64,000 nucleotides of DNA from Aselliscus stoliczkanus (Eukaryota > Chordata > Mammalia > Chiroptera > Hipposideridae), in assembly GCA_033961575.1 (NCBI GenBank), contig CM066736.1, positions 87,093,352 through 87,157,351 on the forward strand. The letters are read 5' to 3'. Under the pieces are notes generated by a model. It was not told the origin of the DNA. It was given only the letters and a program-made list of their open reading frames with translations, and made no database searches. The number at the start of each line of letters is the position of its first letter. Within the stretch, counting starts at the first letter, position 1. A program made the translations under genes and the position numbers. This document shows positions 29,240 through 61,004 of this stretch, piece by piece.

Positions 29240-29477
29240 TAGTTTGATTAGTTACTAATATGTGACGTTATCACTGATCATCAGGAAAAAAACTTTCTCT
29301 GCCATCTCACCGTTAACTACTCAGTTAACTGTTCCTTCTGTCCACGTGTAAGAGGCCATAGTTTGATTAGTTACTAATATGTGACGTTATCACTGATCAT
29401 CAGGAAAAAAACTTTCTCTGCCATCTCACAGTTAACTACTCAGTTAACTGTTCCTTCTGTCCACGTGTAAAAGGCCA
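29240..29477 (+). repeat. 119-bp tandem duplication
   Basis: Unit 1 is 29240-29358 and unit 2 is 29359-29477. They differ at about two positions (Ctcacc/ctcaca and gtaag/gtaaa). Each unit carries the near-palindrome gtgacgttatcac and two GTTAAC sites. Confidence 0.95.
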
Positions 29478-56337: not shown

Positions 56338-56351
56338 GGTAGTTGCTTTTT
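56338..56351. repeat. Target-site duplication, left copy
   Basis: ggtagttgcttttt, identical to 60991-61004. A T-run follows directly, as expected at the 3' end of a - strand retroinsertion. The pre-insertion site reads CTTTTT/AAAG, a good L1-endonuclease cut. Confidence 0.88.
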
Positions 56352-56447
56352 TTTTCTCTTAAAAGAGATTTTTTTTTCATATTTTGTTCTATTTTTTAAT
56401 AATGTTTTCTTTTTAAATTAACATTGACCTATAGTACATTAGTATAG

Positions 56448-58026
56448 CTAAAGGGGCTTGACTTTGTTGTTCCTGAACAGCCTATTTTTCGACAGCCTAT
56501 GGCAGAGCATTGTGAGGCAGTTGCAACACCTCCTAACCACCCTCCAACATCCGTGGTTGTTTTCCCTTGATGATCTGCTGCTCGTGGTGCTGCTGCAGGG
56601 GCTGCTGGAGCCGTAATTGTTCTCAAGGGATGTCTCGGAGCCACTACTCTGGTGGCCTGTGATAGGGCCATGGTTCCTCCACAATGGCCTGATTCTGTGG
56701 CTGACGGGCCCGAAATCCAGGATGGAACTCGAAGTGGTGGTACCGGTCTCTGGGCTGGATCCAGGGGTGATGGCACTGGATCCAGGAGTGCCCATGCTGA
56801 CCTCCGGGATGGTCTTGGAGTTGATGGTGCTCAGCTCCTGGCTGGACTCAGGCTTGATGGTGCCCGCCTTCTGAAGGGCTGGGGGAGTCGCAGGCTTTTC
56901 GCCCCTCTGCCCCAACTCGTAGTCGTCATGGTGCTGCTCAACTGGTGGCATAGTAGAGGTCCCTGGCTGTTCCTCCTGACCTGGAGCTGGACTCTGCTCA
57001 GTGGGATTGTAGGGCTTGACACGAATAATGCGATGATTGAATTTAGACTTTTTGCTCTGCAGGATGAGGTAGGTGGCCATCGTGTTGTTAAAAGTCCTAT
57101 TGGTCAATGTGTCCTGGATGTTGTCATACCGGAAGCCCAGCAGTGCCATTTCCCTCCTCACCCACGGGTCTATGTTCTCGTTGACTGGCTCGCTATAGGG
57201 CATGAGGTCCTCCTCATCCTGACTGAGCCAAGGATGTGACATAATATCGATTAAATCTCTTCTTTCCATGGGGTTCACCTTGAGCATTTTCTTCAGCAAA
57301 CTCTCTAGTTTAAAAGAGAAAAAGTAGGGTATGGTGTACTTCCCCTTTATCACCTGTTGTCCCATTCCTTACAATTCTGTGCCTTGAACGTGAGGGTTCC
57401 TGCCACTATCCTGTATAATGTTACACCCAGGCTCCACACATCGACCACTGGTCCTTCATAGCTTCACCCTGAAACAGTTCTGGAGCTGCATAGGAAGGGG
57501 TGCCACACATTGTGTTTAATTTGCTGTCCATATATTCCGTGCTAAATCCGAAATCGGCGATTTTAACATTCCTTTTCTGGTCGAATAAAATGTTCTCGGG
57601 CTTTATATCCGGGTGCACGATTCCGCGTTGATGGAAATAGTAAACGGCTGATAAAAGCTGCCGAAAGATGACGCGGGCCTCCCTCTCCTTCATTCGTCCA
57701 TGAGCTGTCAGATGGTCCATCACACTGCCACCGCCCAAATATTCCATTACAAGGAAGAAGGAGGCTTTGGTTTCAATAACCTCATACAGCTGCACGATGT
57801 TTGGGTGCTGCAGAGTTTTCATGCACTGGATTTCTCGCATGAGGAATCTATGGCAACTGACAGAGTTATTTACATTTACAATTTTTATAGCCACGTGGGT
57901 CCCAGTGGGAAGATGCTCAGCCAGCTTCACCTTGGCATAGCTGCCCTTGCTAATGATCTTCAGGAGCTTGTAACGCCCATGAAGGAGCACCTGGTCAGCA
58001 GAAGTGGCTGGATGTTCATGTGCCAT
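56448..58026 (-). pseudogene. MARK/sperm-motility-kinase-like intronless gene, frameshifted
   Basis: The coding region starts at an ATG in optimal context (gccaccATGG, 58026). A 201-codon frame covers the kinase N-lobe and part of the C-lobe: degenerate Gly loop (Ser-Lys-Gly-Ser-Tyr-Ala-Lys, residues 26-32), VAIK Lys48, alpha-C Glu65, His-Pro-Asp 138-140 in place of His-Arg-Asp, DFG 158-160, a Leu-Asn-Thr-Met-Cys-Gly activation segment, APE 181-183. Frame is lost near 57460-57470. A middle frame carries the Asp-Val-Trp-Ser-Leu-Gly-Val helix to about 57370. A second shift enters the last frame, which ends the kinase fold, adds a UBA-like segment (about 57190-57060) and a Ser/Thr/Pro-rich, Cys-containing tail to the stop at 56448. 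The C-terminal KA1 domain of MARKs is absent, as in sperm motility kinases. No introns are present. Two indels make it a pseudogene unless the assembly is wrong. Confidence 0.82.
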
Positions 58027-58200
58027 GGTGGCCAGCTGACACTACACTCACTGACAATACTAACTATGCTAATAAACAATAATAACTGTACTAACTAGCT
58101 GACTAAATATACTAACTACATCAACAAAATTATTAACTGTAATAAACAATAACTATACTAACTATTATAAATTTATAAATGGGGGATAAAAGCAGAAAAC
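58027..58200 (-). other. AT-rich 5' leader of the kinase copy
   Basis: Repeated TAGTTAGTA- and TTGTTTATTA-type words (seen on the + strand as actaacta and aataaacaataa) form an imperfect low-complexity leader just before the ATG. No intron remnant is obvious. Confidence 0.6.
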
Positions 58201-58282
58201 AAACTAGCTAGTCCAAGTCCAACAGGTCACTGCAAATTAGCTTCCTGGGCTTATATGGACTAAACCCTCAGCCCAGCTAGGA

Positions 58283-58352
58283 CCTTATATACGAATGTTT
58301 GTAATTACATCACACTGGTGCTTTATGAGGTCAGAGCCCAAAATGGACCAAT
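58283..58352 (-). promoter_or_regulatory. Promoter-like cluster in the transduced segment
   Basis: Read on the - strand: a CCAAT box in inverted orientation (ATTGG, 58348-58352), a near-CRE TGACCTCA (58326-58333), a CRE half-like TGATGTA (58306-58312) and a TATA box TATATAAGG (58283-58291). They are in promoter order about 260 bp before the ATG. CRE plus TATA is common in promoters active in spermatids. This is motif evidence only. Confidence 0.45.
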
Positions 58353-58377
58353 TACAGCTGAGGATAAACTACAGTGT

Positions 58378-59075
58378 TTTTTGTTTTGTTTTGTTTTTTC
58401 CATTTTTTTTGTTTTATTAGTTTCAGGTGTACAACACAATGCAATAGTTATACTCTTCACCTCCCAAAGTGACAACCCCCCTCCCCCAGCTCGCCACCCC
58501 ACTCCCCCAACACACACCATACACATCCACCACAATTCCCTTGATTCCCCTCCACAGTATACTCCACATCCCGTGACTATCCACACATTCAGTCACAGTT
58601 GGCATACAATACTACACAACATCAGTTTCAGGTATACAGCCTCTACTCCACCCAAAATTTTTACATTATTATATTCCCCGAACTGTGTTTCATATCCCTG
58701 TGGCAATATTGCAGTTGTCCATCCATGCTGTCTAATTCCTTCCCCCACCATCCCCACCCCACTTCCAACCAGCAACCCTCAGTTTCTCCTCCATATCTAT
58801 GAGTCTGTTTATTTTGATCGTTCATTCAGTTTTTCAGATTCCACATATAAGTGAGATCACATGGTACCTGTCCTTCTCCGACTGACTTATTTTACCCAAC
58901 ATAATAAGTCGCTTCACATTATCAATTACATTCCCAGAACTGCCCCCATATCCCTGCAGCAACATTGTAGACCCACTTACGCTGTCCAAAACCTTCCCCC
59001 TCTCCTTCTCCCCGACTCCCTCCCAGCCAGCAACCATCAGTTTTTCCTTTATATCTGCTTGATATGACTTCAATC
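58378..59075 (-). repeat. L1 3' UTR with a duplicated block
   Basis: On the - strand the phrase AAACTGATGGTTGCTGGCTGG (about 59035-59055) recurs as AAACTGAGGGTTGCTGGTTGG (about 58770-58790). Standard L1 'atctcacttatatgtggaat' lies between them. The block ends in AATAAAAC and A-rich sequence near 58378. Confidence 0.75.
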
Positions 59076-59640
59076 TTCTTAAATTTACTGAGACTTGTTT
59101 TGTGATCTAACATGGCCTATCTTGGAAAATGTCCCATGTGTACCTGAGAAGAATGTATATTCTGTTTTGTCAGGGTGAAATGCACTAAAAATAACAAAGT
59201 CCAGCTGGTCTACAGTATCATTTAAGGCCCCTCTTTCTGTGTTGATTTTCTGTCTAAAGGGTCTGTCCATTGATGACAATGGTGATGAAGTCCCCTACTA
59301 TGGTAGTGTTACTGTTGATCTCTGTCTTTATGTCTGTCAAAATCTGTTATGTGTAATTAGGAGTTCCTATGTTGGGTGCATAGATGTTTATTAGGGTTAT
59401 AGTGCCCTTCTTTGTCTTTTATTGTATTCATTTTAAAGTCTATTTTGTCGAAAATAAGTATGGGTACTCCAGCTTTTTTTTCTCATTTCCATTTGCATGA
59501 AATATCTTATTCCATCTGTAAACAGCATATACATGTGTCCTATTTTCTTATCCACTCAGCCACTCTCTGTTTTTTGGAGCATTTAGCCCATTCACATTTA
59601 AAATGATTATTGATAGGTGCATATGTATTGCCATTTTGTT
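59076..59640 (-). pseudogene. L1 ORF2 N-terminal (endonuclease) stump
   Basis: After ORF1 the - strand shows the ORF2 opening (Asn-Val-Asn-Gly-Leu-type words near 59590), the Asp-Lys-Ile-Asp-Phe-Lys stretch, and further endonuclease sequence to about 59076, with stops and shifts. The reverse transcriptase and Cys-rich domains are missing; the sequence jumps directly to 3' UTR. Confidence 0.8.
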
Positions 59641-59673
59641 ATTTGTATTCCTGGTCTCCCTGGGTTAGCTTGT

Positions 59674-60507
59674 TTACCCCTTTCTTTTGTTTAAAAAAAG
59701 TCCTTTTAACATTTCTTGCAATGCTGGCTTGGTGGTAATGAATTCCTTAAGCTTATTCTTTTCTGAGAAGCTCTTTATTTCTCCTTCAATTTTAAGTGAT
59801 AGCCATGCTGGGTAGAGCAATCTTGGTTGTAGGCCTTTATTTTGTGTCACTTTGAATATCTCCTGCCACTCCCTTCTGGCCTGCAGAGTTTCTGTAGACA
59901 AGTCAGCTGTTAGTCTAACAGTTCCTTTGTATGTAACCTGCTGTCTTTCTCTTGCAGCCTCTAGGATTCTGTCTCTGTCTTTAACCTTTGCCATTTTAAC
60001 TATGATGTGTCTTGGTGTGGACCTATTTGGGTTCATCTTGTTTGGAACCCTCTGCACTTCCTGGGCATGTATGTTGATTTCCTTCACCAGGGTAGGGAAG
60101 TTTTCAGTCATTATTTTTTCAAATACATTCTCGACCTCTTGCTTCTTCTCTTCTCCTTCTGGTATTCCTATGAGTCGAAAGTGGTTGCATTTCACCTTGT
60201 CCCATAGGGCTCTTAAACTATTTTCATTGTTTTTTATTCTTTGGTCTTTTTGTTGTGCCCACTGGGTGATTTCTGCTATTTTATCTTCCAAATCGCTGAT
60301 CTGCTCCTCTGCTTCATCTACTCTACCGGTGATTCCTTTGAGTGTGTTCTTCATTTCAGTTATTGTATTCTTTAGTTCTAACTGGTTGTTTTTTATGATT
60401 TCTCTATCCTTCCTTATGTCCTCACTAAGTTCCTTAAACATTCTTATCATCAGTGTTCTAAACTGTGTCTCTGAAAGGTTGGCTCCCTCTGTTTCATTTA
60501 GTTCCAT
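59674..60507 (-). CDS. L1 ORF1 (277 codons open, early stop upstream)
   Basis: ORF1p is the trimeric RNA-binding chaperone of LINE-1. The open frame shows a coiled coil rich in Glu/Lys heptads (about residues 20-85), an RRM (about 95-190, with Arg-His-Ile-Ile-Val-Lys-Met-Ala) and the C-terminal domain (Leu-Gln-Pro-Arg-Leu-Leu-Tyr-Pro-Ala). The probable original start is the ATG at 60559-60561, in the same frame 18 codons earlier. A TAA at 60535-60537 cuts it after eight codons, so only reinitiation at 60507 would give product. It is better preserved than the two fragments at 38-400 and 13465-13600, hence younger. Confidence 0.85.
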   Translation of the reverse strand: MELNETEGANLSETQFRTLMIRMFKELSEDIRKDREIIKNNQLELKNTITEMKNTLKGITGRVDEAEEQISDLEDKIAEITQWAQQKDQRIKNNENSLRALWDKVKCNHFRLIGIPEGEEKKQEVENVFEKIMTENFPTLVKEINIHAQEVQRVPNKMNPNRSTPRHIIVKMAKVKDRDRILEAARERQQVTYKGTVRLTADLSTETLQARREWQEIFKVTQNKGLQPRLLYPAWLSLKIEGEIKSFSEKNKLKEFITTKPALQEMLKGLFLNKRKG

Positions 60508-60691
60508 TTCTAGCGGTTTCTTCTGATCTTTTACTTATGACATGTTTCTTTGTTTCCCCATTCTGGCTGTCGCTCTTGGATTGTTTTGATGTATTAGATA
60601 GATCACCAGGAGAGCCCTGGCTGGATCACGCAGGCACACAGCTCACAGCCCAACACTCACAGGAAAACTCCCAGTCTCAGCCTGTTCCAAT

Positions 60692-60990
60692 CAGCCGCTT
60701 GCAGATCAGGCTGAGCAGCCCCGACAACCAATCACCAGCCTGGCAACTCTGCAAGCGCAGTGTGGAGAGTGGGGACCTGAGACGGCTTGCGCACTCCCCC
60801 GTCTCAGTGAGCAGCCTATTGGAGCCGGAGCACGCCCACCAGGCATTTCCCTGGCAACACAGCACAAGCGGAGGGTGGGAATCCGAGGCTGCTTGCGCAC
60901 TCCTGGGTCTCCGTGAGCAGCCTCTTGGAGCCGGAGGGCACCCGCCCAGCATTTTCCTGGCAACGCAGTATAAGCTGGGCAGAGGGTGGG
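60692..60990 (-). repeat. L1 5' UTR of three tandem monomers
   Basis: Units at 60881-60990, 60775-60880 and 60692-60774 share, on the + strand, 'cttgcgcactc', 'gtgagcagcct', 'ggagccggag', 'cctggcaac' and 'gagggtggg'. The third is the most diverged and shortest. GC content is much higher than the surroundings. In rodents such monomers are the L1 promoter; here that role is inference. Confidence 0.82.
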
Positions 60991-61004
60991 GGTAGTTGCT
61001 TTTT
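60991..61004. repeat. Target-site duplication, right copy
   Basis: ggtagttgcttttt followed by AAAGGG. This is the 5' boundary of the - strand retroinsertion. Confidence 0.88.

Follow-up and report, generated by a model that had tools for sequence, protein, structure and literature searches.

A bat L1-driven retroelement family that very probably carries a complete kinase gene and its promoter as cargo

Retrotransposition normally strips a gene of its promoter. L1 3' transduction, reportedly described by Moran in 1999 and Pickeral in 2000, and a few related systems are the closest described counterparts of the element considered here, which combines L1 sequence and a kinase coding region in a 64,000-nucleotide stretch of the bat Aselliscus stoliczkanus (assembly GCA_033961575.1, contig CM066736.1, positions 87,093,352 to 87,157,351, forward strand; this whole stretch is called the window). 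According to PMC4862182, an L1 engaged in 3' transduction is read through past its own signal, the product ends in a second poly(A), duplications surround the whole, and the donor carries a unique 3' flank. SVA-mediated 3' transduction of AMAC1 copied a whole gene (Xing 2006, cited in PMC9917352). In MAST2-SVA, as presented in PMC5753468, splicing attached an upstream exon to the element's 5' side and the product then amplified, from a donor that the transcription unit of this exon could reach; the same paper describes HAL1 (half-L1) as a non-autonomous L1 derivative that kept ORF1 and is missing a functional ORF2.

Here, we find that the window element is very probably a copy of an L1-driven composite retroelement family that carries a complete single-exon kinase gene together with its promoter as cargo. 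The window copy is one L1-kinase insertion on the minus strand with a perfect 14-bp duplication at both ends: the 64-kb window contains exactly two copies of the 14-mer GGTAGTTGCTTTTT, starting at 56338 and 60991. Such a pair is rare by chance: when two boundaries separated by 4-4.8 kb were drawn at random, they ended in a direct repeat of 14 bp or more in 12 of 200,000 trials. Loci elsewhere in the genome are given by handle (such as L030) or by position (such as C14:12.96 Mb), and the parts of the window copy are as follows (UTR, untranslated region; aa, amino acids; ORF, open reading frame).

56338..56351, plus strand: left target-site duplication GGTAGTTGCTTTTT, at the 3' end of the element, which itself lies on the minus strand (14-mer match)
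56352..56447, minus strand: kinase 3' end and terminal A-rich tail (sequence; donor loci are without poly(A) here)
56448..58026, minus strand: MARK-like kinase coding region, in which ORFs of 201 and 305 aa are left (ORFs, Pfam, PDB sequence match)
58027..58376, minus strand: kinase promoter and 5' leader, with an ATTGG box, TATATAAGG at 58291-58283 and CCACCATGG at the start codon (sequence)
58377..58412, minus strand: inner A-tract, the junction of L1 and cargo (sequence)
58413..59060, minus strand: L1 3' UTR, ending in AATAAA at 58418-58413 (sequence)
59061..59634, minus strand: stump of ORF2 that covers part of the endonuclease region and contains numerous stops and frame breaks (alignment to the ORF2 region of L030/L031)
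59674..60561, minus strand: L1 ORF1, with a stop at codon 9; an ATG farther inside, at 60507, opens an ORF of 277 aa (Pfam)
60562..60990, minus strand: truncated L1 5' UTR, with two 106-bp monomers at 60764-60975 (sequence comparison with full-length relatives)
60991..61004, plus strand: right target-site duplication GGTAGTTGCTTTTT, at the 5' end of the element (14-mer match)

The ORF1 of the window copy has Pfam matches to the RBD, dsRBD and trimer parts of Transposase_22, the L1 5' end is about 0.7 kb shorter than in full-length relatives, and the non-L1 unit, which begins CACTGTAG, measures 2 kb. No repeat longer than 6 bp linking either flank to the inner junction was found, and the outer pair of duplicates therefore bounds a single insertion. 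This agrees with the initial annotation, which had described a single insertion between perfect 14-bp duplicates and the same layout of parts. It had also proposed that one event joined the L1 to a whole kinase gene at this site. One event did insert the element here, but the joining took place elsewhere, in an already joined and amplifying element from which this copy descends, and the gene is no longer whole: 1-bp deletions near 57463 and 57370 break the frame, leaving ORFs of 201 and 305 aa, and the HRD motif now reads HPD. The window copy is a dead, 5'-truncated descendant of such a joined element, without the segment from C5 described below. A further L1 fragment, 73-79% like the element's L1 part, lies on the opposite strand at 19-806 of the window.

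The evidence for a family comes from the recurrence of the junction with different duplicates, which the initial annotation had named as support for an amplifying chimeric family. We searched the genome with a 301-bp probe across the L1/kinase junction and scored 40 of 731 candidates. The junction was spanned at 29 of these 40 places, corresponding to 28 loci since two places at C7:19.91 Mb represent one locus with an inverted fragment; identity was 100% for the window and 87-94% for the others. The remaining 11 places matched the kinase side only (96-98%), and L1 sequence was present farther upstream in ten of them, the eleventh (C10:119.77 Mb) having been read only 0.65 kb upstream. We then read 19 other junction loci (10 kb each), four kinase-side loci (6 kb) and short pieces of seven more. 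Among 21 copies tested at both ends, 18 carry target-site duplications of 11-19 bp, all different, of which 11 are perfect and seven have one or two mismatches or a gap. This count excludes L016 (3' end lost), L028 (rearranged), the donors, where none is expected, and the seven loci read in pieces. A kinase without L1 sequence was encountered in none of the 21 copies.

Three arrangements were distinguished. Type A (the window copy, L010-L017 and L024) consists of L1, A-tract, kinase and poly(A), followed by other sequence, with the poly(A) end lost in L016. Type B has the same layout but continues into an additional 3' segment of about 390 bp, which is closed by a new poly(A), and a stretch resembling a short interspersed element (SINE) was present at the 5' side of all six type-B loci read there (L018, L019, L020, L022, L026, L027). 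In type C, 0.36-1.5 kb separate the L1 from the kinase. The type-C loci L030 and L031 retain a longer L1 with much of ORF2, both with stops or frame breaks: L030 has the endonuclease (Exo_endo_phos, 2.4e-16) and is missing about 1.1 kb of ORF2 that is present in L031, which is 5'-truncated and has the reverse transcriptase (RVT_1, 1.1e-8). Two copies, on C10 and C5, retain the greater part of a longer L1, including endonuclease and reverse-transcriptase sequence. In the junctions displayed, the L1 end joins upstream of the kinase unit, either at the inner A-tract or at a different A-rich site.

The recurring junction bears on an account in which each locus received two insertions, first a kinase retrocopy and afterwards an L1 beside it, independently each time. 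The inner A-tract does resemble an L1 tail, and the L1 parts differ between subtypes. In contrast, a single duplication surrounds the whole while the inner junction has none, and the same junction is found at 28 further places with different outer duplications, which makes this account highly improbable. For the window site, the absent inner duplication together with the recurring junction rules out two separate insertions. At the origin of the family, the landing of a new L1 upstream of a kinase copy is possible.

How the L1 and kinase came to move together is displayed by loci on C14. The 3' ends of two of seven loci, C14:0.60 and C14:12.96 Mb, pass the retrocopy poly(A) point uninterrupted into common downstream DNA, while the other five have poly(A); L029 (C14:12.27 Mb) and C14:1.81 Mb are likewise without poly(A) and share this native 3' flank. 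The L1 of these donors, with ORF1 and an ORF2 stump, ends 1.5, 1.5 and 1.9 kb upstream of the kinase in L029, P12 and P06, respectively. Their kinase frames are open over 524, 516 and 542 aa, the final part of the last being out of register, and all three kept VAIK, HRD and DFG. The C9 copy comprises a whole L1, a 1.5-kb interval and the kinase, here with a broken frame, and has poly(A) and its own 14-bp duplication, AAAAACCTTGGCAA. Enclosing duplications, poly(A) after the cargo in addition to an A-tract or signal at the L1 end, and donors without poly(A) were thus all found, showing that C14 and C9 represent a donor-offspring arrangement for L1 3' transduction of an entire gene. The initial annotation had named 3' transduction as the simplest reading and a locus without poly(A) as what the source would be; the C14 donors and C9 daughter bear out this class of mechanism, and the C14 loci running past the retrocopy end are such sources. 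A donor of exactly the window subtype did not turn up among the loci read.

Could the copies have arisen by segmental duplication of one L1-kinase locus without any retrotransposition? When compared over 2.8-5.5 kb, the donors L029, P12 and P06 show 94-96% identity, and L031 has a flank in common with C14:14.5 Mb, as such duplication would predict. However, 18 of 21 copies, spread over many contigs, have poly(A) ends and duplications that differ from one another, so that as a general account it is barely credible. For the 18 copies with duplications, it is ruled out by poly(A) and distinct target-site duplications.

The cargo itself carries a further clue to the template. No intron was present in the kinase copies read. 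The window cargo starts 85 bp upstream of the TATA box, and the distance from the cargo start to TATATAA is 82-85 bp in 18 of 20 readable copies and donors; this pattern is missing in L023 and L024, and six further copies fall outside the simple pattern. We infer from the TATA box that the cargo begins about 120 bp upstream of the predicted transcription start. An ordinary processed pseudogene begins at the transcription start without a promoter, and the kinase cargo does not. Because the TATA box lies 85 bp inside the unit and CCACCATGG provides the start context, the cargo resembles a gene with its promoter and not a processed transcript; because it begins upstream of the TATA box, the template was a read-through RNA.

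This start also weighs on a different origin for the window lineage, namely that the lineage was founded, without read-through, when reverse transcriptase copying a kinase RNA left it at its upstream A-tract and continued on an unrelated L1 RNA from the poly(A) of the latter. The junction variants displayed do sit at A-rich sites, and the window-type L1 3' UTR is only 74-82% like the C14 and C2 types, as against about 90% for the kinase. However, a cargo that starts 85 bp upstream of the TATA box, and by our estimate some 120 bp upstream of the expected start, points to a read-through RNA as the template, and the C14 and C9 loci display read-through directly. We consider this origin rather unlikely. 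In a more limited role, template switching may explain why the L1 of the window subtype is joined directly at the A-tract; for types A and B in general, this direct joining may go back to template switching, to loss of the DNA from one A-tract to the next, or to an L1 that newly landed next to the kinase.

A second donor became apparent on C5. At L026 (C5:31.28 Mb), a 17-bp duplication with one mismatch, AAGATGTTCTYCTCTCG, encloses the element from the SINE-like start through the poly(A) of the kinase. In L026, the additional 3' segment of type B forms the ordinary 3' flank and continues without poly(A). A search for this segment gave 17 places (17 of 17 candidates scored), each adjoining a junction place: L026 and 16 others, nine of which were read in sequence (L018-L023, L025, L027, L028) and seven assigned by position alone, among them C8:23.58 Mb, which matches just 179 of 371 bases. 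Judged by sequence, the C5 copy L026 is a second donor.

The 5' leaders of type-B copies differ, yet they meet at an identical base beside the SINE-like start; at this boundary, L026 shows a pyrimidine-rich, acceptor-like CAG. While no leader exon was found within 10 kb upstream of L026, one was later located about 74 kb upstream on the same strand. This exon, E2a, at C5:31359909, is bordered by ...CTATAG and GTAATT (AG/GT) and is 96% identical to the leader of L018. Altogether E2a occurs at five places, the others being L018, L022, C3:147.60 Mb (beside a type-B copy) and C6:35.60 Mb. Native E2a with AG/GT borders 74 kb upstream, together with leaders joined at the element boundary, indicates that spliced transcripts of the C5 locus were retrotransposed. 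The E2a copy on C6 (35602105-35602285) lies at a locus without the type-B 3' segment, and the leader exon upstream of type-B copies (L018, L022; L019 2303-2499, L027 2210-2271) is, by impression only, similar to a long terminal repeat.

Taken together, these loci show the following course. On C14, an L1 ends 1.5-1.9 kb upstream of the kinase gene, and the loci run beyond the retrocopy end without poly(A). RNA from such an L1 through the kinase gene was reverse-transcribed and inserted elsewhere, as in the C9 copy with its 14-bp duplication, and related L1-kinase units moved as single elements, each with a target-site duplication of its own. The C5 copy served as a secondary donor, with an upstream exon spliced onto its 5' boundary in some offspring. 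L1 proteins may have acted in cis or in trans via target-primed reverse transcription, and template jumping between A-tracts or fresh L1 insertions may have shortened the interval between L1 and kinase and exchanged L1 parts.

Several observations weigh against this course or limit it. The C14-type and window-type L1s are 93% identical in ORF1 and only 80% in the 3' UTR, and the window lineage is therefore not a simple deletion of the C14 arrangement. In the kinase tree, the C9 copy groups with L030/L031, beside and not within the sampled C14 donors, so that its parent was an earlier or other C14-type locus. A target-site duplication was looked for and not found around the C14 L1 of L029, nor in L018, L020 and L031 among the 21 copies tested; of the 18 duplications, the seven imperfect ones include L027 as the weakest, mismatched at two of 14 positions, and the L019 duplication is SINE-like. 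Pfam gave no match for a 398-aa piece of ORF2 from L031. The 3' flank of L031 (C5:135.26 Mb) beyond the poly(A) is common to L062 (C14:14.50 Mb); probably one of the two arose from the other by segmental duplication, which therefore contributes to the copies. Finally, scoring covered 40 of 731 junction and 82 of 716 kinase candidates, and the donor list is incomplete.

Kinase trees contain star-like groups A and B and one clade with the C types and donors, and identity by segment revealed that the L1 part is mosaic and the kinase is not. L025 (C14:17.17 Mb), which combines a type-B L1 and 3' segment with a kinase coding sequence like that of the C14 donors, suggests a mosaic from gene conversion or template switching.

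Whether the kinase is maintained was assessed from substitution patterns. No purifying selection on the kinase was detected in 24 sequences including donor L029, with nonsynonymous (N), synonymous (S) and stop changes of 315:136:12 for singletons and 185:78:4 for shared variants at a neutral N/S of 2.54. ORF1 likewise showed no departure from neutral N/S among copies (126:52:7), and no purifying signal was seen between donors (NG86 omega 0.85, 1.19 and 1.07). The sole hint of constraint comes from the differences fixed between kinase clades, among which there is neither a stop nor a frame-breaking indel: the 99 fixed differences between A and B plus A and C, which overlap, include no stop, compared with 12 stops in 463 singleton variants, and 21 of 31 singleton indels in the kinase break the frame. 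L018 and L020, neither with a clear duplication, share three frame-breaking indels despite different flanks and leaders, suggesting that these copies could spread without an intact kinase.

The kinase was broken in the majority of retrocopies read. Five retrocopies with an ORF open over more than 500 aa were read: DFG is altered in L010, L023 and L026, C10:119.77 Mb has RRD, and C13:36.84 Mb has an open frame for a kinase of 525 aa whose motifs are intact. This last copy is a type-C insertion that is truncated at its 5' end and has a duplication of 10 bp. Further full-length open copies are at C15:13.05, C14:14.50 and C1:189.27 Mb. The initial annotation had envisaged a kinase-carrying family that spreads testis kinases in bats; the family stands with its recurring junction, whereas spread of functional kinases is not borne out by retrocopies whose N/S does not depart from neutral, the intact C13 copy aside. 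It is unlikely, if conceivable, that the lineage is a stable gene-bearing retroelement across several subfamilies whose cargo, for instance a germline-active promoter or kinase, aids its spread and which has seeded at least one intact retrogene with promoter (C13:36.84 Mb).

The window kinase matches Pkinase in Pfam (1.5e-54). In a protein search with the read-through kinase, the two top matches among the 120 listed were unnamed (59% and 45% identity) and the best named one, with 56% identity across 71% of the query, was annotated as MARK2-like in Hipposideros armiger. The cargo may belong to the SMOK sperm motility kinases. In a search for the kinase family, 82 of 716 candidates were scored and yielded at least 99 matches, with groups on C14 and C2. 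Two further kinase groups lie at C2:1.63-1.78 Mb and C2:174.4-174.9 Mb; one is a run of similar many-stop copies (also on C84 and C96), the other consists of three copies with 73-78% protein identity. Apart from the element, the window contains a tandem duplication of a 119-bp unit at 29240-29477, in two copies at 98%.

An L1 lineage has thus repeatedly copied a whole gene with its promoter, with donor and offspring both readable in one genome, which allows exon trapping, serial donors and the spread of genes through transduction to be tested directly in a natural L1 system. A literature search at title and abstract level found no L1 family carrying a kinase gene, which is no proof of absence from print. 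The whole-gene transduction precedent known to us, AMAC1, was driven by SVA, and it reportedly gave few gene copies. Compared with L1 3' transduction, the L1-kinase family is alike in read-through, second poly(A), enclosing duplications and donor 3' flank, and differs in that the cargo is a complete protein-coding gene with promoter and the chimera was amplified. With SVA/AMAC1 it has in common that a whole gene was copied by 3' transduction, whereas here the vehicle is an L1 or L1 derivative, copies number in the dozens, and a daughter donor gave rise to secondary transduction. The type-B leaders resemble MAST2-SVA in that an upstream exon was joined by splicing and then amplified, E2a being a native upstream exon with AG/GT borders joined exactly at the boundary; in contrast, this is an L1-kinase composite with several alternative leader exons. 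The window element may resemble HAL1, compared by description only, in its mostly open ORF1 and an ORF2 reduced to a broken stump, and differs in that this stump is recognisable, foreign cargo is present and ORF1 shows no departure from neutral N/S among copies. The kinase domain is nearest to MARK2/3 among PDB sequences. What is new is an L1 lineage with a full gene at this scale, the known precedents being SVA/AMAC1 transduction and MAST2-SVA exon trapping.

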